A stretch of 64,000 nt of DNA from Acidobacteria bacterium RIFCSPLOWO2_12_FULL_68_19. GTDB taxonomy: Bacteria > Acidobacteriota > Vicinamibacteria > Vicinamibacterales > UBA2999. Both the position numbers and the translations under genes were made by a program. Location of the stretch: positions 1 to 64,000 of the forward strand of contig MELF01000008.1 in the NCBI GenBank assembly GCA_001767525.1. The letters are read 5' to 3'. The notes beneath the pieces are model-generated. The model was not told the origin of the DNA. It made no database searches and worked only from the letters and a program-made list of their open reading frames with translations. Below are positions 2,164-60,036 of the stretch, one piece after another. How positions within the stretch are numbered: the stretch's first letter is position 1; the number at the start of each line of letters is the position of its first letter.

Positions 2164-2250
2164 TGGTAGCCGGTAGCCGGTAGCCGGTAGCCGGTAGCGT
2201 GTAGCCGGTGACAAGGCGCTACCGGCTGCCGCCTACCAGCGACGAGCTAC
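2164..2250. repeat. CGGTAGC array plus inverted copies (rplW-rplB gap)
   Basis: Four exact CGGTAGC units (2171-2198) follow one TGGTAGC copy. After a short spacer, inverted pieces (GCTACCGG, GCCTACC, GAGCTAC) lie between 2218 and 2250. The transcript could fold back on itself just before the rplB start codon at 2262. The array occupies most of the gap between two genes that are normally almost contiguous. Confidence 0.93.
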
Positions 2251-16414: not shown

Positions 16415-19012
16415 ATGCGGAGGCTCGGATGGCGGCGGCTGAAGACCGGAGGGGTCGGTGCGGCGGTACTGGCGGCACTCCTCCTCGCGCCAGGCGATAC
16501 CCGGTCGGCAGCGGCCAGAGATCTTCGTCCGATCGCCGCGCTTGCCCCGGTCGACGTGCTCGCATCGGGCTTCGTGGAGCTGTCGGGGGTGGCTGTGGAG
16601 CCCTCCGGCACGATACTCCTGACGGACCGTGCGGCCGGGACGCTGATGCGCCTCCATCCAGGTGGCCGACACGAACCGCTGTTGGATGGTCTGCACGGGC
16701 CGATCGGCGTCGCCCAAGACCGTGCCGGACGGATCGTTGTCGCCGAAGCGGCGGGGCGACGCATCCTGAGGATTACTCCTGGCGGAGCCGTGACGGTGCT
16801 GGCCGCGACGCTGCGGCAGCCGCGCGCCGTGGCGGTCGGGCCAGACGATCGCGTCTTCGTTGCCATGCGGGCCGATACCAAGGCGGAATTCGTGATCGCG
16901 CGGCTGGAGGAGTCCGGCGCGGTGACGGAGGTTGTCTCGGGCTTGAGCGATGTCGAGGCGATCGCCGTCGCCCCTGACGCAATCTACGTGGCGACGAAGC
17001 GTCTCGTGCAGGAGCGCGGCAACCTGCGGACGATCGTTGCGAGAATTCCGATCGACGAGGATGGCGTGGCTGGTGCCGTCGAGCCGCTCATCGGCGGCGC
17101 GCTGCATCGGGCGCTGGCTGTCGGCGTCGATGTGCTGAACGACGTGTTCATCGGCGGCGTCGCCATCGACGGCGGGGACGGCCGTTCCGGCACGATCCTG
17201 AAGCGCCACTCCGAGGGCCGCGTGACGGTGTTTGCCGCGGGACTGACCGATCCCGCTGGACTGGCGCTGACACCGAGTGGAGACCTGATTGCGATCGAGC
17301 GGCGGCATCCGGGCCGCGTGCTGCGCTTTCGTGCGCCTCTCCCGCCGGTGCCGGCGGTGCCTGCGTTCACCAACCAGTCCCCGTTGTCGGTCGCCGGCCT
17401 GTCGGAGCCCGGCGCGCGGATTCAGCTGCTTCAGCCGCCTCGGTCCGAACCACTGGCGTCGACGACGGCCGACACGCTCGGCGACTTCACGCTGCCGGCG
17501 CGGCTCGCTCCCAATACCGCCACCGAGCTCGTATTCCGGGCGACCGCCGCCAACGGGCTCGGACTCACGGGAGCGGCTGCGGTGACGAGCGTCACGCATG
17601 ACGATATCCCGCCTCGCGTGACGCCGCTCGAGCCCTCGCCCGGCATGCACACGCGGATGCCGGTCATACTCCGCGCTCGCGCGGAAGATGAGGGAAGCGG
17701 TCCTGCGGCCGTGACATTCCTGCTCGAGGACAGGGTCGTGGCTGCGGTGACGAACCCGGCGCCCCCTGCGGCGCTGCTCGCCGGGGCGGTGCTTCAGACG
17801 GAGGCAGTCGCCGAAGGACCTCATGGGCTGACCGTCGCGGCGGTGGACCGGGCCGGAAATCAGGCTGCCCTCGCGCAGTTGCTCGTCGTCGATCGCACGC
17901 CGCCCGATACCTGGATTGTCGCCGGGCCCGCGCCCGAGACCGCCGAGCGGAACGTACGCTTCGAGGTGGGCGGCGGCGACCTCTGGTCGCCCACGCTCGA
18001 CTATTCATGGCGTCTCGATGCGGGTGCCTGGTCGCCGTATGATCCGTCCGTCGCGGTTGACCTGGACGGGTTGACCCAGGGGAGGCACCGGTTCGAGGTC
18101 CGGGCGCGCGACCTGGCCGGCAACGAGGATCCGACGCCGGCTGTACAGTCGTTTACCGTGCAGTCGCTGCGTGTCCGCATTCTCGAACCTGCCGACGGGC
18201 AGCTCGTGACGACTGACTCGATCTGGATCCGTGGCGCCGTCGAATCCTCGGACGACATCGTCTCGGTCACCCTGGCGTTGCCGGCCGCGTTCGGCGGCAG
18301 CCTGACGGCATCCGTTGAAGGCGGTACCTTTGCCATGGAAGTTCCCGCAGACCCGGAGCTGACAACCTTCACGGTCGTGGCCGCCGGCCGCACCGGTGCG
18401 ACCGCGCAAGCCTCTGTTTCCGTCGTTGTGGCATCCGATCGGAGCTCCGTGGAATCGCTCGAGGTGTGGCCACCGGGAGGGCTGGCGCCAGTGACCGTTC
18501 GGCTCGGCCTTCATGGATTCAGCGGCGTCCCGGCGGCGATCGATCTCGACGGCGACGGCGTCCTGGAGTTCGACGGTGTCCTGAGTTCGGACGACTTCTA
18601 CGGGACGTATTCACGGGCCGGCATCTATGTGCCGACCGTCTGGATCACGACGCCCGACGGAGAAGTGCGCGCCCGCCGGGCCCTGGTGGAAGTGTACGAA
18701 CGCTCCGTGCTCGACGCCCGGTTGCAAGCGGTATGGAAGGGATTCAAGGACGCGCTGCGCAAGGGCGATATCGACGCTGTCGTCTCGTTCGTCGTGGAGG
18801 AACGGCGCCAGGCCTGGGCGGAGTATTTCCGGGCGTTGCCCGCGGATGCGATGGCCGACGTCGACCAGGTGTTCCCGGCCATCTCACTTGTGGAGGTCGG
18901 CGCCGGCGGCGCGCAGTATGAGATGGTGGCCGAGCGTGACGGTGTGTTGTTCTCCTATGCCATATGGTTCCAGGTCGATGCCGACGGCCGGTGGCGGCTG
19001 TGGCGGTTCTGA
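16415..19012 (+). CDS. Secreted beta-propeller / Ig-like repeat protein
   Basis: The 865-residue protein has an N-terminal export signal (MRRLGWRRLK then a hydrophobic run ending near APGDTRSAAA). Residues about 45-310 contain NHL/SMP-30-like blades such as GVAQDRAGRIVVAEAAGRRI and GVAVEPSGTILLTDRAAGT. Residues about 320-590 look like Ig-like domains (VDRTPPDTWIVAGP, FEVRARDLAGNEDP). A further stretch has IDLDGDGVLEFDG, a calcium-type loop in a PKD-like domain. The last 90 residues resemble an NTF2-like fold. ATG 16415 is chosen because a TTG 60 nt upstream would place 20 polar residues before the signal. The exact role is unknown; ligand or polysaccharide binding is possible. Confidence 0.7.
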   Translation: MRRLGWRRLKTGGVGAAVLAALLLAPGDTRSAAARDLRPIAALAPVDVLASGFVELSGVAVEPSGTILLTDRAAGTLMRLHPGGRHEPLLDGLHGPIGVAQDRAGRIVVAEAAGRRILRITPGGAVTVLAATLRQPRAVAVGPDDRVFVAMRADTKAEFVIARLEESGAVTEVVSGLSDVEAIAVAPDAIYVATKRLVQERGNLRTIVARIPIDEDGVAGAVEPLIGGALHRALAVGVDVLNDVFIGGVAIDGGDGRSGTILKRHSEGRVTVFAAGLTDPAGLALTPSGDLIAIERRHPGRVLRFRAPLPPVPAVPAFTNQSPLSVAGLSEPGARIQLLQPPRSEPLASTTADTLGDFTLPARLAPNTATELVFRATAANGLGLTGAAAVTSVTHDDIPPRVTPLEPSPGMHTRMPVILRARAEDEGSGPAAVTFLLEDRVVAAVTNPAPPAALLAGAVLQTEAVAEGPHGLTVAAVDRAGNQAALAQLLVVDRTPPDTWIVAGPAPETAERNVRFEVGGGDLWSPTLDYSWRLDAGAWSPYDPSVAVDLDGLTQGRHRFEVRARDLAGNEDPTPAVQSFTVQSLRVRILEPADGQLVTTDSIWIRGAVESSDDIVSVTLALPAAFGGSLTASVEGGTFAMEVPADPELTTFTVVAAGRTGATAQASVSVVVASDRSSVESLEVWPPGGLAPVTVRLGLHGFSGVPAAIDLDGDGVLEFDGVLSSDDFYGTYSRAGIYVPTVWITTPDGEVRARRALVEVYERSVLDARLQAVWKGFKDALRKGDIDAVVSFVVEERRQAWAEYFRALPADAMADVDQVFPAISLVEVGAGGAQYEMVAERDGVLFSYAIWFQVDADGRWRLWRF

Positions 19013-30932: not shown

Positions 30933-31148
30933 CGGCGTAGGTCGCGTCCGGCGTCAGCCGAACGTGCGTGCGGGATCTCCGCCATGGCGGCACGTCTCGC
31001 TCTTCGCCGCGTTCCACGTGGCGTTCACCGCTGCCGTTCCGTGGCGGAAGCGTCCCGGCGGCGCGAATCATGGGAACGTTCGGCTGCCGATCGCGGTTGA
31101 CTCGAACGGTCCGAACGATCCGAACTATCCCAACGATCCGAACGAGCG
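30933..31148. other. Gap with 9-bp repeats between element copy 1 and permease gene
   Basis: No gene is seen. The last part (31103-31147) holds five 9-mers of CGAACGATC type, ending at the stop codon of the minus-strand permease gene. The remainder is GC-rich with no recognisable promoter or RNA. With the element before it, the whole non-coding stretch is 459 bp. Confidence 0.75.
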
Positions 31149-32441
31149 CTATTCGTACCGCAGCGCCTCGATCGGGTCGAGCCGCGCGGCGCGAACGGCC
31201 GGCACCATGCCGAAGACGAGCCCCACGCCGGCGGAAAAGAGGAGGCCGAGCAGGAACGACCACCACGGCAGGGAGACCGGAAAGCCCGTGAAGAGGTTCA
31301 CCGCCACGCCGATGCCGCTGCCGAGGGCGATGCCGAGCAGGCCGCCGATCGAGCTGAGCACCGCCGCCTCGGTGAGGAACTGCATCAGCACCTCGCGGCG
31401 CCGTGCGCCGAGCGCCTTGCGCAGGCCGATCTCGCGCGTTCGTTCCGTCACCGAAATGGTCATGATCGCCATCACGCCGATGCCGCCCACCATCAGCGCG
31501 ACCGACGAAATGACGACGAGCGCCAGGAGCGTGGCCTGACTCACCCGCTCCCAGACCTCGAGCGCGGCATCCTGCGACACGAGATCGAAGTCGTTCGGTT
31601 CGTCGACGCGCAGTCCGTGCCGGATGCGCATGATCTCCTGCACCTCCGCCACGAGCCCGTCCCGGGTCGCGCCGGCCCGCGGCGCGGCGGCGATGAGCAC
31701 GCTCTGATGCGTCTCGCTGCCGCGCCGGAAGATCTGGATGCCGAACTGCTTCCGGTACGTGGTCTCGGGGATGACGACGAAGTCGTCCTGGCCGAGGTCG
31801 AACCCGCCCGCGGCGGGGCGTTTCCCGAGGACGCCGATGATGGTGTATTGCACCGGGCCGACGCGCACCGGCTTGCCGATCGGATCGATGCCGGCGCGCC
31901 CGAACAGCGCCTCGAACGGCGCGTAGCCGAGCACCACCACGTTGCGCCGCCGGCTCACCTCCGTTTCGGTGAAGAAGCGGCCGGCCTGCACTTCCAGGAA
32001 GTTGATGCGCGCAAACTCCTCGGTCGTGCCGAGCACCGCCAGCGACTTGGTGCGCTCGCCCCGGTAGCTGATGCGCGTCTGCGTGGGCGGGCCGCCGGCG
32101 CCGAGCCAGACGTCGACGATCCCCGCCGACGGCGCGAGCCGCTCGATCGCGGCGGCGTCCTCGACCCTGAGATTCGGGCGGCGGAGCAGCTCCGTGAAAT
32201 TGCGGCCCGCCGCCACGCTTACGCCGCTGAACTTGGCCACGAAGATCGTGTCCGGGCCGAGCTCGCGGATGCTGTCGCGGAGCGATCGATCGAACCCCCG
32301 GATGAGCGACGTCATGCCGACGATCGCCGTGATTCCGATGACGACGCCGAGCACGGTGAGCGCCGAACGCAGCTTGTTGGCGCGAAGCGTGTCGAGCGCC
32401 AGCAGCACGACTTCACGCAGCAACGCGGCTCGGGAGGTCAT
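31149..32441 (-). CDS. MacB-type ABC transporter permease (second copy)
   Basis: The 430-residue protein has the MacB layout: a cytoplasmic start and one TM helix (LRSALTVLGVVIGITAIVGM, about 24-43), a periplasmic core domain (about 50-290), and a C-terminal FtsX domain with three helices. It ends MVPAVRAARLDPIEALRYE, the typical end of such permeases. In MacAB-like systems the permease couples ATP hydrolysis on a separate or fused ATPase to export. No ATPase domain is present in this protein. It is the last gene of a minus-strand operon, separated from the upstream permease by a 450-bp repeat block. Confidence 0.9.
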   Translation of the reverse strand: MTSRAALLREVVLLALDTLRANKLRSALTVLGVVIGITAIVGMTSLIRGFDRSLRDSIRELGPDTIFVAKFSGVSVAAGRNFTELLRRPNLRVEDAAAIERLAPSAGIVDVWLGAGGPPTQTRISYRGERTKSLAVLGTTEEFARINFLEVQAGRFFTETEVSRRRNVVVLGYAPFEALFGRAGIDPIGKPVRVGPVQYTIIGVLGKRPAAGGFDLGQDDFVVIPETTYRKQFGIQIFRRGSETHQSVLIAAAPRAGATRDGLVAEVQEIMRIRHGLRVDEPNDFDLVSQDAALEVWERVSQATLLALVVISSVALMVGGIGVMAIMTISVTERTREIGLRKALGARRREVLMQFLTEAAVLSSIGGLLGIALGSGIGVAVNLFTGFPVSLPWWSFLLGLLFSAGVGLVFGMVPAVRAARLDPIEALRYE

Positions 32442-32891
32442 CGAACTCTAGCCCACAGGTGCAGATAGTGCGATGGTGCGGGGTGCGACGGTGCGAGGGT
32501 GCGTCCGATGGTGCGACGGTGCGACGGTGCGACCGAGGGGTGCGACGGTGCGACCGAGGGGTGCGACGGTGCGACCGAGGGGTACGACGGTGCGACCGAG
32601 GGGTACGACGGTGCGACCGAGGGGTACGACGGTGCGTCCGATGGTGCGACGGTGCGTCCGATGGTGCGACGGCGCGACCGAGGATGCGAGGGTGCGACGA
32701 TGTCTGGGCAATAGCGCATAGCGACACCGATCGCCGCACCGTTGCACTGTCGCATTCCCGGATGCACCGTCGCACCTCGCACCGTCGCACTCTCGAAGTG
32801 CACCTCGCACCGTCGCACTTCGGAAGTGCACCTCGCACCCTCGCACCATCGGACGCACCGTCGCACCCTCGCACCGTCGCACCCCGCACCG
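32442..32891. repeat. 450-bp GTGCGAC repeat palindrome between two permease genes
   Basis: The left part (32460-32700) is tandem GTGCGACG-type units, with an exact 21-bp period (GTGCGAC, GGTGCGA, CCGAGGG) from about 32531 to 32635. The right part (32740-32890) is the same units inverted (GTCGCAC), with a 28-bp period near 32770-32840. Together they form a very long imperfect inverted repeat. It lies inside an apparent operon and has no start or gene of its own. The copies are short and contiguous, unlike CRISPR. Confidence 0.93.
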
Positions 32892-34112
<1,221 letters not shown>

Positions 34113-34113
34113 C

Positions 34114-35466
34114 TCAGGGACCCGGCGTGGGCGTCTGCGGCGTGACGTCCGCGCCGTCGGCCAGCTCGCGGACCGACGAGAAGGGGCCCGTGATCACCCG
34201 GTCCTGCTCGTTCAGCCCCGAGAGCACCTCGAAGTAGCGCTCGCCGGCGATGCCGACCTTCACCGGGACGAACACGGCGCGGGTGCCGCGCAGCACGAAC
34301 ACCCCTTCGGTTTCACGGCGCGTATGGCCGGGCGGCGGCTCCGGCGGCGCCGGGTTCGGCGCCGCCTCGCGGTCGAACAGGCGAAACCGCGGCGGCGGCG
34401 CCGGGGGCGGCTCGCGGACCAGGGCGCCTGCGGCGTCGTAGAGCAGCTCGCGCACGGTCAGCGCCTGGATCGGCACCGACACGACGTGCGGACGCGTTGC
34501 CGTCGTGATCTCCGCCGTGCAGGTGAACCCGGGCCGCACGTCGGGAATCTGTTCCTCGATCGTGATCACCACCTTGAAATTCGTCGCCTGCGTCGTTGTC
34601 GGCGTCTGCGTGCTCGCCGTCTGAATCGGGCTGTTGCCGATCTCGGTCACCCGGCCGAGGAAGGTGCGATCCGGCACCGCGTCGATGGTGACGCGCGCCT
34701 GCTGGCCGACCCTCACCTCGGGTACATCCGTCTCGTCGACCTCCACCTCGGCTTCGATGACCGACATGTCGGCAATCGTCAGCAGCACCGTTCCGGGATT
34801 GTTCATGGTGCCGACCACGACGTTCTCGCTCTCTTCGATGTTGCGGCGGGTGATGATGCCGTCCATCGGCGACGAAATGATCACCTGGCTGAGCGAATAG
34901 CGGGTGGTGGCGAGCCCCGCCTCCTCCTGTTTGATCTGCTGCTCCCGCGTCTGCACCTCCTGTTCCCGGACTTTGAGCTCGGCTTCGCGCAGCTCCGCCT
35001 CGTTCTCGGTCCGCTCGAGCGTCTCGCGTGAGGTCAGCCCGCCGCTCCAGAGCTCCTGCTGCCGCTTCAGCGTCTGCCGGGCGAGGTCGAGCGTGACGCG
35101 CGTCTGCTCGACCGCCGTGCGCGCCTGTTCGAGCGCCGAGCGGGCGGCGGCGACGTTCGCTTCGCCGCGCTGCAGTTGCCCTTCGAACGACCGCGGATCG
35201 ATCTCGAGCAGGAACTGGCCGGCGCGGACGCGCTGTCCTTCTTCGACCGCCAGCCGCGTCACGCGGCCCATGGTCGTGGCCGACACGTTGACCTGCCGCT
35301 TCGGCTGGATCTTGCCCGACGCCGTGACGATCGCCTCGAGATCGCGCGTGCGGACGCTCTCCACGATGACCGCGGGAAGCTCCGGACGCGTCAGCCAGAG
35401 GACGGCGCCGCCGGCGCCGGCCAGGACGAGGATCGCGGCCGCCGCCAGCAGCCGCCGGCCGCTCAC
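34114..35466 (-). CDS. HlyD/MacA-type periplasmic adaptor
   Basis: The 450-residue product has one N-terminal TM helix (AAAAILVLAGAGGAVLWL, about 6-24), a split lipoyl-like domain (TASGKIQPKRQVNVSA; SPMDGIITRRNI) and a long coiled-coil hairpin rich in Gln/Glu (about 95-180). Beta-barrel and membrane-proximal domains follow. Near the C-terminus a proline-rich insert (about 350-385, PPPAPPP and PAPPEPPPG) interrupts the last domain. GTG 35466 overlaps the upstream stop by 4 nt. It would link the MacB-like permeases to an outer-membrane channel not in this window. Confidence 0.92.
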   Translation of the reverse strand: MSGRRLLAAAAILVLAGAGGAVLWLTRPELPAVIVESVRTRDLEAIVTASGKIQPKRQVNVSATTMGRVTRLAVEEGQRVRAGQFLLEIDPRSFEGQLQRGEANVAAARSALEQARTAVEQTRVTLDLARQTLKRQQELWSGGLTSRETLERTENEAELREAELKVREQEVQTREQQIKQEEAGLATTRYSLSQVIISSPMDGIITRRNIEESENVVVGTMNNPGTVLLTIADMSVIEAEVEVDETDVPEVRVGQQARVTIDAVPDRTFLGRVTEIGNSPIQTASTQTPTTTQATNFKVVITIEEQIPDVRPGFTCTAEITTATRPHVVSVPIQALTVRELLYDAAGALVREPPPAPPPRFRLFDREAAPNPAPPEPPPGHTRRETEGVFVLRGTRAVFVPVKVGIAGERYFEVLSGLNEQDRVITGPFSSVRELADGADVTPQTPTPGP

Positions 35467-38987: not shown

Positions 38988-39074
38988 CTCCCAACACGCC
39001 AACTCCCAAGCGAGTTGTGAGAATTTGGGAATCGGGAATTTGGGAATTGGGAATTGGAAGTTGAGGCGGAAGAG
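38988..39074. repeat. TTGGGAA/AACTCCC repeats (pilB-pilT gap)
   Basis: The gap contains CCAACTCCCAAG and then tandem GGGAATT-type heptamers (about 39015-39055), related to the TTGGGAG arrays at 49741 and 52108. Inverted parts could pair weakly. GGCGGAAGAG just before 39075 acts as the pilT ribosome binding site. Confidence 0.8.
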
Positions 39075-40207: not shown

Positions 40208-40298
40208 GGGTAGCCGGTAGCCGGTAGCCGGTAGCCGGTAGCCGGTAGCCGGTAGCCGGTAGCACGAACGTTCTTGCTACCGGCTACCGGCTACAAGC
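40208..40298. repeat. CGGTAGC array with inverted arm (pilT-pilC gap)
   Basis: Seven exact CGGTAGC units (40215-40263) follow one GGGTAGC unit. After ACGAACGTTCTT, the inverted units GCTACCG repeat twice (to about 40290). The RNA would form a clear stem. The array fills nearly all of the 111-bp gap between two pilus genes. Confidence 0.97.
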
Positions 40299-43212: not shown

Positions 43213-44639
43213 AGCAGCCGCTCCCGCAGCCGGAGGCGCCGGGCGCTGCACGCATCCTCGTCGTCGACGACGAGCCGTCGATGCGCGAGATGCTGCGGAT
43301 CGTGCTCCGCCGCGACGGGTACGCCGTGGTCGCCGTGGCCAGCGGGAAGGAGGCGATCGAGCGCCTGCAGGCGGAGCCGTTCGACCTGCTGCTGTCCGAC
43401 ATCCGAATGCCCGACACGAGCGGCGTCGAGGTGCTCCGCGCCGCCAAGCGGATCGACGCCAACCTAGTCGCGTTCATGATGACCGCCTTCGCCTCGACCG
43501 AGAGCGCCGTCGAGGCGATGCGCCTCGGCGCCTCCGACTACTTCACCAAACCCTTCAGCATGGACGAGCTGCGGCTCAAGGTGCGGCAGCACCTCGAGGC
43601 GCGCCGGCTGCGCGAGGAGAACCTGCTGCTGAAGCGGGCGCTGAACAGCCGCTACGAGTTCTCGAACATCCTTGGCCGCAGCGACCCGATGCAGCACGTG
43701 TTCGCGACCATCCGGACCGTCGCCGGCACGAGCAGCACGGTGCTCGTCACCGGCGAGTCGGGAACGGGCAAGGAGCTCGTGGCGCGGGCCGTGCACTTCA
43801 ACTCGCTGCGGTGCGACCGGCCGTTCGTGGCGGTCAACTGCGGCGCGGTGCCGGAGCCGCTCCTCGAATCGGAGCTCTTCGGCCACGTGCGCGGCGCCTT
43901 CACGGGCGCACACGCCGCCAAGAAGGGGCTCCTCGAAGCCGCGGGCGGCGGGACGATCTTCCTCGACGAGATCGGCGAGATGCCGCCGTCGATGCAGGTG
44001 AAGCTGCTGCGCGTGCTGCAGGACCACCGCTTCCGGCGCCTCGGCGGCACCGACGAAGTGCAGGCGGATGTGCGCGTGATTGCCGCCAGCAACCAGGACC
44101 TCACCCGGATGGTGGCCGAGGGGCGGTTCCGCGAGGACCTGTACTACCGCCTGAACGTGCTGTCGATTCCCGTGCCGCCCCTGCGCGACCGGCGGGAGGA
44201 CATTCCGCTGCTCGCCGAGCACTTCCTGCAGCAGTTCGCCTCCGAGATGGGCAAGCGCGTGCGCACCATCGCGGCCGACGCGATGCGGCTCCTCGAGGCG
44301 CACACCTGGCGCGGCAACGTCCGGGAGCTGCAGAACGCCATCGAACGCGCCGTCGCGCTCGAACAGACCGAGGCGATCCTGCCGGAAAGCCTGCCCGACG
44401 AGGTGCGAGGGTTGGCGGGTCCGAAAGGACCCGCCCCACGTGGCGCCCACGGGCCCGCGGAGGGATTTCCGGACTTGGGCGAGGGCTTTGACCTCGAGGC
44501 GCGGGGCGAGGAGTTCTACCGCCACTACATCGCCCTGGCGCTCGCCCGCGCCGGCGGCGTCCAGGTCAAGGCGGCGGAACTGCTCGGCATGAGCTTCCGC
44601 TCGCTCCGGTATTACGTGAAGAAGTACGACCTGCGCTAG
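43209..44639 (+). CDS. pilR: Sigma-54 response regulator PilR
   Basis: PilR activates pilA. The 476-residue protein has a receiver domain with D64 (LLLSDIRMPD), an AAA+ domain with Walker A GESGTGKE (about 182-189) and the sigma-54 contact loop GAFTGA (229-234). A C-terminal Fis-type helix-turn-helix ends VKAAELLGMSFRSLRYYVKK. Between AAA+ and the HTH, a Pro/Gly-rich linker (about 400-425) is encoded by a perfect hairpin repeat (44414-44435). The stop codon is formed at the edge of a CGGTAGC-type array. Confidence 0.96.
   Translation: MKQPLPQPEAPGAARILVVDDEPSMREMLRIVLRRDGYAVVAVASGKEAIERLQAEPFDLLLSDIRMPDTSGVEVLRAAKRIDANLVAFMMTAFASTESAVEAMRLGASDYFTKPFSMDELRLKVRQHLEARRLREENLLLKRALNSRYEFSNILGRSDPMQHVFATIRTVAGTSSTVLVTGESGTGKELVARAVHFNSLRCDRPFVAVNCGAVPEPLLESELFGHVRGAFTGAHAAKKGLLEAAGGGTIFLDEIGEMPPSMQVKLLRVLQDHRFRRLGGTDEVQADVRVIAASNQDLTRMVAEGRFREDLYYRLNVLSIPVPPLRDRREDIPLLAEHFLQQFASEMGKRVRTIAADAMRLLEAHTWRGNVRELQNAIERAVALEQTEAILPESLPDEVRGLAGPKGPAPRGAHGPAEGFPDLGEGFDLEARGEEFYRHYIALALARAGGVQVKAAELLGMSFRSLRYYVKKYDLR
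44414..44435. repeat. Perfect hairpin repeat inside pilR
   Basis: GGCGGGTCC, loop GAAA, then GGACCCGCC form a perfect 9-bp stem within the codons for the pilR linker (residues about 402-410). It looks like an intergenic REP-type hairpin inserted in frame into a tolerant linker. More GC-rich dyads follow to 44460. Confidence 0.85.
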
Positions 44640-44759
44640 CCGGTAGCCGGTAGGTGGTAGCCGGTAGGTGGTAGCCGGTAGGTGGTAGCCGGTAGGTGGT
44701 AGCCGGTAGGAAGAACCGTGAACGTCGAACGTGCTACCGGCTACCGGCTACCGGCTAGC
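44640..44759. repeat. 14-bp CGGTAGC/GTAGGTG array with inverted arm (after pilR)
   Basis: A 14-bp unit (GGTAGCCGGTAGGT, two heptads) is repeated about four times from 44643 to about 44710. A spacer GAAGAACCGTGAACGTCGAACGT follows, then the inverted arm of three GCTACCG units (44741-44759). The RNA would fold into a long stem at the end of the pilR message, upstream of the pilA control region. The whole pilR-pilA gap is 399 bp; its remainder holds the pilA promoter and its leader repeat. Confidence 0.93.
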
Positions 44760-44785
44760 GGCTGACATTTATTGCCAGCCAGGAG

Positions 44786-49740: not shown

Positions 49741-49826
49741 CGACAACCTCCAACTCCCAAAACGCCAATTCCCAACGCTCCCAAGCGCTCCCTTTGGGAG
49801 TTGTGAAGTTGGGAGTTGGGAGTTGC
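49741..49826. repeat. TTGGGAG heptamer arms (before pilD)
   Basis: CAACTCCC and CAATTCCC units on the left (49745-49790) and TTGGGAG units on the right (49793-49826) form an inverted pair with a short loop. The unit is the same 7-mer as at 52108-52172. The end lies 24 nt before the pilD start, which has its own GAGG. Confidence 0.9.
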
Positions 49827-50865: not shown

Positions 50866-52102
50866 CGGCTACGCGCTGCTCGGTCTGACCGCCATCGTTG
50901 CGGTGCTCGTGGGTGTGCTCACCTTCGCCGTACTGAGGATTGCGGCGGCGGCGCGGACGGCCCGTCGATCGCTCGGGGACGGGGGCTCGGAAGCGATGCT
51001 CCTGTCGGCGGCGCTGCAGGAGGCGGTCACGCGGCTCAGGACCGAAGAGCGCGCGATGAGCGCCAGGGCGGCGGCCTCCGAGCAGCTCAGCGCGCAGATC
51101 GTCGAGAGCCTCACGGCAGGGCTCCTCGTGGTTGATGGCGCGGGCCGGGTGACGATGCTGAATCCCGCGGGCCGGCGGCTCCTCGACCTCACCGGCGAGC
51201 CGGTGGGCGTGGACTACGGCGAGCTGCTCGACGGCGTGCCGCCGCTCCGCGACGCGGTCGCCGAGTGCCTCGCCACGCGCCGGCCGATCCTGCGCCGGTC
51301 GCTGCAGGCGCCGCGGAGCGGCCGGCCGGCGCATCTCGGCGTCACCGTCTCCCCCCTCGGCGCGAGTGGCGACGGGGGAGCGATCTGCCTCTTCTCTGAC
51401 CTGACCACTGTCGTCGAGCTCGAGGAGCAGTTGCGGCTGAAAGAGGCGCTGGCACGGCTCGGTGAGCTGACCGCGGGCCTGGCGCACGAGTTTCGCAACG
51501 GGCTCGCAACCATTCACGGCTACAGCCGCCTGCTGGCGCCCGACGCGCTGCCGCCGGCCTACCGGCCGTACGTGGAGGGGATCCGGCAGGAGACCGACAC
51601 GCTCGGCCGGGTCGTGACCACCTTCCTCGACTTCGCGCGCCCGGAGAAGCCGTCGCTCGCGCCGGTGGCGCTCGGCGCGCTCGCCCGGCGCGCGAGCCAC
51701 GAGCTGCGGCACGAGCTGCCGGCCGGGACCGACGTGGCGGTGAGGGGCGAGTTCGCCGACGTGCAGGGCGACGAGGTGCTGCTCAGGCAGATGTTCGGGA
51801 ACCTGCTGCGCAACGCCGCCGAGGCGTGCCAGGCCGCGGGAGTCACTCCCGCCATCGTCATCGACGGCCGCGTCGACCGGGCCCGCGGCGCCTGCTCGGT
51901 CACGGTGTCGGACAACGGGCCGGGCATTCCGGCGGCGGACCGCGAGCGGGTGTTCCAGCCGTTCTTCACGACGCGGACGCGCGGGACGGGGCTCGGGCTC
52001 GCCGTCGTGCAGAAGATCGCGGTGACGCACAACGGCCGCGCGACCGCCGGCGCCTCGGCGGCCGGCGGCGCGGCGATCGAGATCACCTTCCCCCTGCCAT
52101 GA
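50834..52102 (+). CDS. Sensor histidine kinase (NtrB-like)
   Basis: The 422-residue protein has one N-terminal TM helix (YALLGLTAIVAVLVGVLTFAV, about 14-34), a PAS domain (about 90-205), the phospho-acceptor H218 in AGLAHEFRNGLATI and an HATPase domain with DNGPGIP and RGTGLGLAVV. The H-box has Gly in place of the usual Pro (RNGL rather than RNPL). GTG 50834 is the chosen start; upstream codons lie in a dispersed repeat. Its likely partner is the sigma-54 regulator at 58468, with the minor pilin genes in between, which is inference. Confidence 0.85.
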   Translation: MNDAFVNNPGYGYALLGLTAIVAVLVGVLTFAVLRIAAAARTARRSLGDGGSEAMLLSAALQEAVTRLRTEERAMSARAAASEQLSAQIVESLTAGLLVVDGAGRVTMLNPAGRRLLDLTGEPVGVDYGELLDGVPPLRDAVAECLATRRPILRRSLQAPRSGRPAHLGVTVSPLGASGDGGAICLFSDLTTVVELEEQLRLKEALARLGELTAGLAHEFRNGLATIHGYSRLLAPDALPPAYRPYVEGIRQETDTLGRVVTTFLDFARPEKPSLAPVALGALARRASHELRHELPAGTDVAVRGEFADVQGDEVLLRQMFGNLLRNAAEACQAAGVTPAIVIDGRVDRARGACSVTVSDNGPGIPAADRERVFQPFFTTRTRGTGLGLAVVQKIAVTHNGRATAGASAAGGAAIEITFPLP

Positions 52103-52107
52103 ACGCC

Positions 52108-52172
52108 CAACTCCCAATTCCCAACTCCCAACTCCCAAGCTTGGGCGTTGGGAGTTGGGAGGTTGGGAGTTG
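52108..52172. terminator. TTGGGAG inverted repeat between convergent genes
   Basis: The left arm (AACTCCCAATTCCC and repeats, 52108-52139) and the right arm (TTGGGCG, TTGGGAG, TTGGGAG, 52140-52172) pair nearly throughout, with AAGCTT at the centre. The stem joins the ends of two convergent genes. It could terminate both strands, though neither strand shows a T-run. Confidence 0.8.
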
Positions 52173-59966: not shown

Positions 59967-60036
59967 ACGGGCCACAGAGCCACGGAGAAAGCCAAGACCA
60001 CCTTGGTCTCTGTGTCTCTGTGCCTCTGTGGCCCGT
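59967..60036. terminator. CACAGAG inverted repeat between convergent genes
   Basis: ACGGGCCACAGAG (59967 onward) pairs with CTCTGTGGCCCGT (60024-60036). In between are TCTCTGTG repeats and a small CCAAGACC/CCTTGGTC element. The stem lies between the stops of the response regulator and aroB, so it may terminate both. No T-run is seen. Confidence 0.7.

Follow-up and report, generated by a model that had tools for sequence, protein, structure and literature searches.

The 450-bp palindromic array between two permease genes in the window (the whole 64,000-nucleotide stretch that was analysed) is probably an ORF-less copy of a word-specific hairpin element, which resembles the intervening sequences (IVSs) of 23S rRNA and depends for its dispersal on a cognate S23 protein. 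Each family of such elements consists of inverted arrays of one 7–8-base word, and complete copies add in the loop a gene for S23 (PF05635, also TIGR02436), a four-helix-bundle protein known from the IVSs. Four PF05635 genes were found in the genome that holds the window; all four lie between inverted arrays, and the four arrays are built of four different words (Table 1).

Table 1. Coordinates of the array, its host operon, sister elements in the window and S23 genes elsewhere in the genome (contig:position)
Feature	Position	Strand	Remark
Whole element, ORF-less GTGCGA-type palindromic array	32442..32891	.	direct reading; absent from the gap of the same-genus relative
Left arm, GTGCGANG units	32468..32700	+	outermost units match the family end consensus
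Landmark GTGCGTCCGA of left arm, fifth unit	32499..32508	+	
Local 21-bp higher-order expansion, GGTGCGACGGTGCGACCGAGG	32518..32643	+	
Loop separating the arms, 36 nt	32701..32736	.	
Right arm, TCGCAC units (minus strand: GTGCGA)	32737..32890	-	28-bp expansion 32772-32874
Landmark GTGCGTCCGA of right arm	32849..32858	-	
Upstream permease gene, MacB_PCD + FtsX	32892..34112	-	stop codon adjoins the element
Downstream permease gene, MacB_PCD + FtsX	31149..32441	-	
HlyD-type membrane-fusion protein gene, same operon	34114..35466	-	
Sister element GGTAGCC	2165..2250	.	between rplW (L23) and rplB (L2)
Sister element GGTAGCC	40209..40290	.	with inverted arm
Sister element GGTAGCC	44637..44763	.	with inverted arm
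S23 gene	C13:19045		flanked by GTGCGA arms
S23 gene	C3:29598		flanked by GGTAGCC / GGCTACC arrays
S23 gene	C10:123316		flanked by GTTGTCA / TGACAAC arrays
S23 gene	C13:42516		flanked by GGTTCGG / CCGAACC arrays

Direct reading, tandem-repeat analysis (TRF) and alignment of the inverted arms confirmed the palindromic array that the first-pass annotation had described at 32442–32891, in which GTGCGA units face TCGCAC units. The basic unit is the 8-mer GTGCGANG, from which the 21- and 28-bp periods were built up locally as higher-order expansions. TRF returned 8.8 copies of the 21-bp period for the left arm (32518–32698, 93% match) and, as had been annotated for the inverted half, a 28-bp period for the right arm (3.7 copies, 86% match, 32772–32874). 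The 21-bp period had been called exact; the period itself stands, but it is only near-exact, with GTGCGAC drifting to GTACGAC. Both runs presumably arose later, by slippage, as local expansions. The stretches 32475–32532 and 32833–32890, each of 58 nt, are 86% complementary, and a part of 43 nt reaches 93%. Folding of the minus, gene-sense strand as RNA gave a minimum free energy of -296.7 kcal/mol against -209 ± 6 for shuffled sequences (z = -14), and 129 of the 174 predicted pairs join arm to arm, in keeping with the annotated pairing over more than 100 bp. The array thus displays the inverted terminal sequences and long stem of an IVS, while its loop holds no S23 ORF and its site is not within a 23S rRNA gene. 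GGG tracts in register, the G-quadruplex feature of heptamer repeats, are absent from GTGCGA, and an Rfam search of 31000–34000 matched no family.

In the genome that holds the window (4.21 Mb in 52 contigs), 109 alignments were obtained at about 60 places, and with so many places carrying the motif, a lone operon palindrome, a free-running microsatellite and chance were rejected as accounts of it. In the sampled stretches from which the genome statistics were drawn (about 430 kb, enriched for arrays), 54 of 63 arms were intergenic, dispersed as tandem units of 8 nt. Most arms follow one order inwards from the outer end: four 8-mers, the 12-mer GTGCGTCCGANG with the landmark GTGCGTCCGA, and then more 8-mers. 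The landmark lies at nt 30–33, as the fifth unit, in 41 of the 55 landmark-bearing arms, compared with about 10% under unit shuffling. The same ordered end consensus is present in another genus (G015), and GTGCGA arms without the landmark occur in other genera; in a scan of 84,980 species, from which the window's own genome was perhaps left out, the landmark 26-mer was restricted to Acidobacteria MAGs. Given that the unit order is fixed across arms, the GTGCGA arms are, on sequence grounds, copies of one defined end.

Arms at one locus are as similar to each other as to arms of other loci, which counts against the proposed reading and gives no support to copying of one arm from the other at the same locus. 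The arms also follow a strict polarity regardless of gene direction: among arms lying at least 50 bp closer to one gene than to the other, all 17 plus arms had the left gene as their nearer neighbour, and 21 of the 22 minus arms had the right gene. A DSB-healing (telomerase-like) origin was considered for this polarity and set aside, as one-armed copies would seem to keep their polarity relative to the gene edge. ORF-less GTGCGA loci have interior stretches in common with the S23-bearing element, whereas G018, a genome of the bacterial family, contains a GTGCGA array and lacks S23, a point against the S23 model. The genomes of the bacterial family are all fragmented and apparently metagenome-assembled, so that array lengths are uncertain. 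Arrays lie at or near the ends of contigs C2, C13 and C25, where the assembly breaks at them, and a run of N stands inside a GTGCGA array on C13 (L021, ~18235–18277).

The S23 gene between GTGCGA arms on contig C13 is an ORF of 124 aa that matches PF05635 with E = 7e-24. The enclosure of S23 genes by inverted arrays was quantified by local alignment of each gene's upstream flank with its reverse-complemented downstream flank. The comparison covered 71 S23 genes in the bacterial family, some at orthologous loci and hence not all independent. Their median inverted-flank score was 25, compared with 13 for 120 other genes (Mann-Whitney p = 6e-17), and 47 of the 71 exceeded the 95th percentile of the controls, while about a third did not. 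Flanks compared in direct orientation did not differ from controls (p = 0.63). At the cdd-mtnA locus, S23 was found in five genomes, each with a word of its own; the five words are related, and the two arms had changed together; in G015 (L218) the S23 gene at this locus is apparently reversed relative to its orthologues, with the arm polarity kept. Two further S23 genes (L247 in G001, L272 in G005) have strongly inverted flanks of longer period built around GGTCGGTGCGA. By eye, an apparently broken MazF/PemK-like toxin gene stands beside the GTGCGA-type S23 in the same element (L216, 1045–1405).

In a tree of 37 S23 proteins the words clustered by clade. GTGCGA-associated S23s from three genera grouped together (support 94/93), as did the GGTTCGG and GGTTCAG proteins (100/98), and further clades joined GGTAGCC with GGTAGCC, the GGCAG variants with one another, GGGAACA with GGGAGCA, and GGGGATC with GGGATTA. 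Over 36 loci, with each locus group represented once, S23 phylogeny was correlated with the word (Mantel r = 0.45, p = 2e-4). These comparisons show that S23 and word travel together, and S23 may recognize its own word, although the correlation would also arise from mere joint descent of S23 and arms. The abundance of words followed the presence of S23 as well. GGGAACA was matched 26, 19 and 9 times in the three congeners whose S23 has GGGAACA flanks, compared with 1 and 0 in the two congeners that lack S23. For GGTAG, the three highest of 43 genomes had 199, 158 and 109 matches and the next had 18; these three are the genomes in which a GGTAG-flanked S23 was found, words having been read for part of the genomes' S23 genes, so that such genes may occur elsewhere.

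The mechanism proposed for these elements is as follows. The S23 of a given word would recognize the hairpin of that word, as RNA or DNA, and promote its copying into other intergenic sites, and so would drive the dispersal; a host polymerase, a reverse transcriptase or a nuclease may supply the copying chemistry. The GTGCGA-type S23 of contig C13 would mobilize ORF-less copies in trans, that in the window among them. The transcript hairpin would be tolerated, probably through processing by RNase III or a similar enzyme as for rRNA IVSs, leaving the genes working. A point against this mechanism is that the elements encode no nuclease or polymerase of known type.

The order of events could be the reverse, with arrays arising independently and S23 homing into pre-existing hairpin loops whose word it recognizes. 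The 23S rRNA IVSs are indeed located at helices (PMC4990558; the Azospirillum element described below), ORF-less arrays far outnumber S23-bearing ones, and both the S23-word correlation and the contrast within a genus are compatible with either direction. Nevertheless, such homing is considered unlikely: word arrays are nearly absent from congeners without S23, the fixed 60-nt order of the GTGCGA ends implies that these are copies, and interior sequence is common to S23-bearing and ORF-less copies.

Ordinary microsatellite growth, in which slippage and template switching at neutral intergenic sites build both words and palindromes, would account for the internal 21- and 28-bp expansions, and heptamer repeats are over-represented in many bacteria, for which slippage has been proposed (PMC4692102, PMC4679880). 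As an origin of the elements it is improbable, since the unit order is fixed across about 55 arms, arms at the same locus are not copies of each other, the polarity is constant and S23 is linked to the arrays. Pure slippage is contradicted by the fixed unit order and is largely refuted for the arm ends, while it stays likely for the inner expansions.

Likewise a poor candidate is the relic of a foldback or MITE-type DNA transposon that a DDE or HUH transposase had moved, S23 being a passenger. The inverted ends of iterated short units fit such a relic, and in Drosophila the foldback (FB) transposons have inverted ends of short tandem units; these are eukaryotic elements, and their proteins are unrelated to S23. 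An integrase-core (rve) transposase gene adjoins one GTGCGA array (L047, 3487–4617) and a fragment of a similar gene adjoins another (L029, 2752–3030). However, an association with an IS transposase was rejected, being limited to these two sampled loci and to none of the four S23 elements, and it is S23, not a transposase, that recurs inside arrays across phyla.

The window holds six word families, four of which have an S23 gene between their arrays in this genome. The CCAACTC/TTGGGAG and CACAGAG/CTCTGTG families have the same layout (39021–39057, 49794–49825, 52102–52172 and 60006–60030), and no S23 partner was found for either in this genome, which weakens the case for the S23 model. A GGTAGCC array at 94–147 adjoins the S10 ribosomal-protein operon. 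Within that operon, the gap between rplW and rplB is about 6 bp in most relatives, the ancestral state; it is filled with GGTAGCC in this genome and with GTGATTA, GAATGTC, CAGTTGT, TTGGTAA and other words in other genera. An architecture common across genera with a differing word argues against a conserved operon-specific role.

The same layout was observed outside the phylum. S23 genes were read on plasmids of Nostoc, Calothrix, Anabaena, Trichormus, Pseudanabaena, Geminocystis, Stanieria, Leptolyngbya, Gemmatirosa and Azospirillum, and nearly all of them were, by eye, flanked by inverted arrays of words such as GGGAAAA, GGGAGTA, GGGAACA, GGTGACA and GGGCAGGA. Of 14 plasmid S23 loci, 10 had an inverted-flank score above the control 95th percentile; the controls here were the Acidobacteria genes, which differ in base composition. 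Co-directional genes of one operon enclose several of the plasmid elements (nrd, cas6-cas4), and the S23 elements that separate cas6 from cas4 on an Anabaena sp. 90 plasmid and a Pseudanabaena galeata plasmid have different words (L293, L298). On plasmid AZO_p2 of Azospirillum lipoferum, an S23 element lies inside a 23S rRNA gene (L294, ~1465–1900), and the rRNA model RF02541 spans the element, a classical IVS with heptamer-type ends GAGGACGGATGACAG. This element forms a bridge between rRNA IVSs and intergenic arrays. The company that hairpin elements keep with matching S23 proteins, here and in distant bacteria, suggests that intergenic seven-base repeats and rRNA insertions are one kind of thing. 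A general class is put forward tentatively, its chances being judged slightly below even: word-specific hairpin elements would be a class of bacterial selfish DNA in which each S23 recognizes its own 7–8-base word and spreads hairpins of it, in intergenic sites and sometimes in rRNA, the heptamer repeats of Acidobacteria, cyanobacteria, Xanthomonas and others would be non-autonomous copies, and words would change as S23 evolves.

Several known systems resemble parts of this layout. The 23S rRNA IVS of Coxiella is bounded by inverted ends, carries an S23 ORF and is excised by RNase III; such IVSs are patchily distributed and considered selfish (PMC4990558). The elements described here share with the IVSs of Coxiella burnetii and Leptospira the inverted ends as a stem, the S23 gene in the loop and the patchy distribution, but lie between protein-coding genes, number in the tens, for the most part have no ORF, and have ends of iterated words. 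The GGGAATC and GGGGA(C/T)T heptamers of Xanthomonas and Nostoc are intergenic and follow the same polarity rule, and their function is still to be elucidated (PMC4692102). Together with the cyanobacterial STRRs they are similar in having 7-base tandem words in intergenic DNA near gene ends, some as inverted pairs, with the motif strand running away from the gene edge in the Xanthomonas and Nostoc heptamers as here; no protein partner has been reported for those heptamers, in contrast to the S23 of the present families. REP/RAYT systems likewise combine palindromes scattered outside genes with a protein presumed to be dedicated to them. S23 differs in being a four-helix bundle for which no catalytic site is known, and REP palindromes differ in being short and in not consisting of word arrays; the 20–40-nt form of a REP is not that of the GTGCGA arms.

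A further likeness is to Avd of diversity-generating retroelements (DGRs). The GGTAGCC S23 matched the NCBIfam Avd model (E 2e-12) at 47 bits, below the cut-off of 80, and inspection of the genes at the four S23 loci revealed no DGR reverse transcriptase or variable repeat. S23 is also related to the solved proteins 2gsc, which is S23 XCC0516 of Xanthomonas campestris, and 2rld, and its kinship to Avd, 2gsc and 2rld hints at nucleic-acid binding. Heptamer repeats in bacterial intergenic DNA have been on record since the cyanobacterial STRR work, and S23 proteins are common, with solved structures and without known function. No prior report linking S23 or IVSs with heptamer repeats was found in the open-access literature of PMC, and the unit order and S23 link of the word arrays are new here. 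If the link between S23 and word is true, two puzzles would merge into a single system open to test, in which a small protein binds RNA or DNA, is specific for a word and yields array gain as its measurable product; genus-specific words at the same intergenic sites would be explained, and a protein-word code could be deciphered from sequence alone.

At its own site, the array stands where it had been annotated, between two permease genes transcribed in the same direction in one export-type operon, a MacB/FtsX pair with an HlyD-type gene. Read on the minus strand, the HlyD-type gene precedes both permeases, and the stop codon TAA of the upstream permease (32894–32892) directly abuts the array. 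The permease genes of a same-genus relative (G001) overlap by a few bases without an array, and the 450 bp were thus gained recently. The gap in relatives ranges from -1 to 48 bp, and among them only G010 has a GTGCGA array of its own there, which is short and one-armed. Because the ancestral site is a gene overlap, a clean target-site duplication is not definable; the outer 60 nt of the arms are conserved.

The earlier suggestion that the array serves as an end or uncoupler specific to this operon was not borne out. No intrinsic terminator (G+C-rich stem plus T-run) and no promoter pattern were found in 32300–33000, the array is a recent gain, sister elements lie inside the S10 operon, and the gaps filled by the family are of mixed types (23 co-directional, 9 convergent and 2 divergent). 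Strong termination between rplW and rplB would be costly, which argues against a terminator. A hairpin selected for regulation, whether to end transcription, to protect the mRNA 3' end or to control coupling in the export operon, is very improbable despite the highly stable fold at the stop codon and the enrichment of convergent gaps among arrays (9 of 34, compared with 28 of 329; p = 0.004), considering that a T-run terminator is lacking, nearly all relatives with the same operon lack the array and different genera place unrelated words at the same ribosomal site. As a side effect of its insertion, the array may change permease coupling, 450 bp having been added to an overlapping junction. 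A different palindromic repeat, GGCGGGTCTGCCTCG...CTCGGCGAGACCCGCC, replaces GTGCGA arrays at several sites of the same-genus relative (for instance L185, on contig C35).
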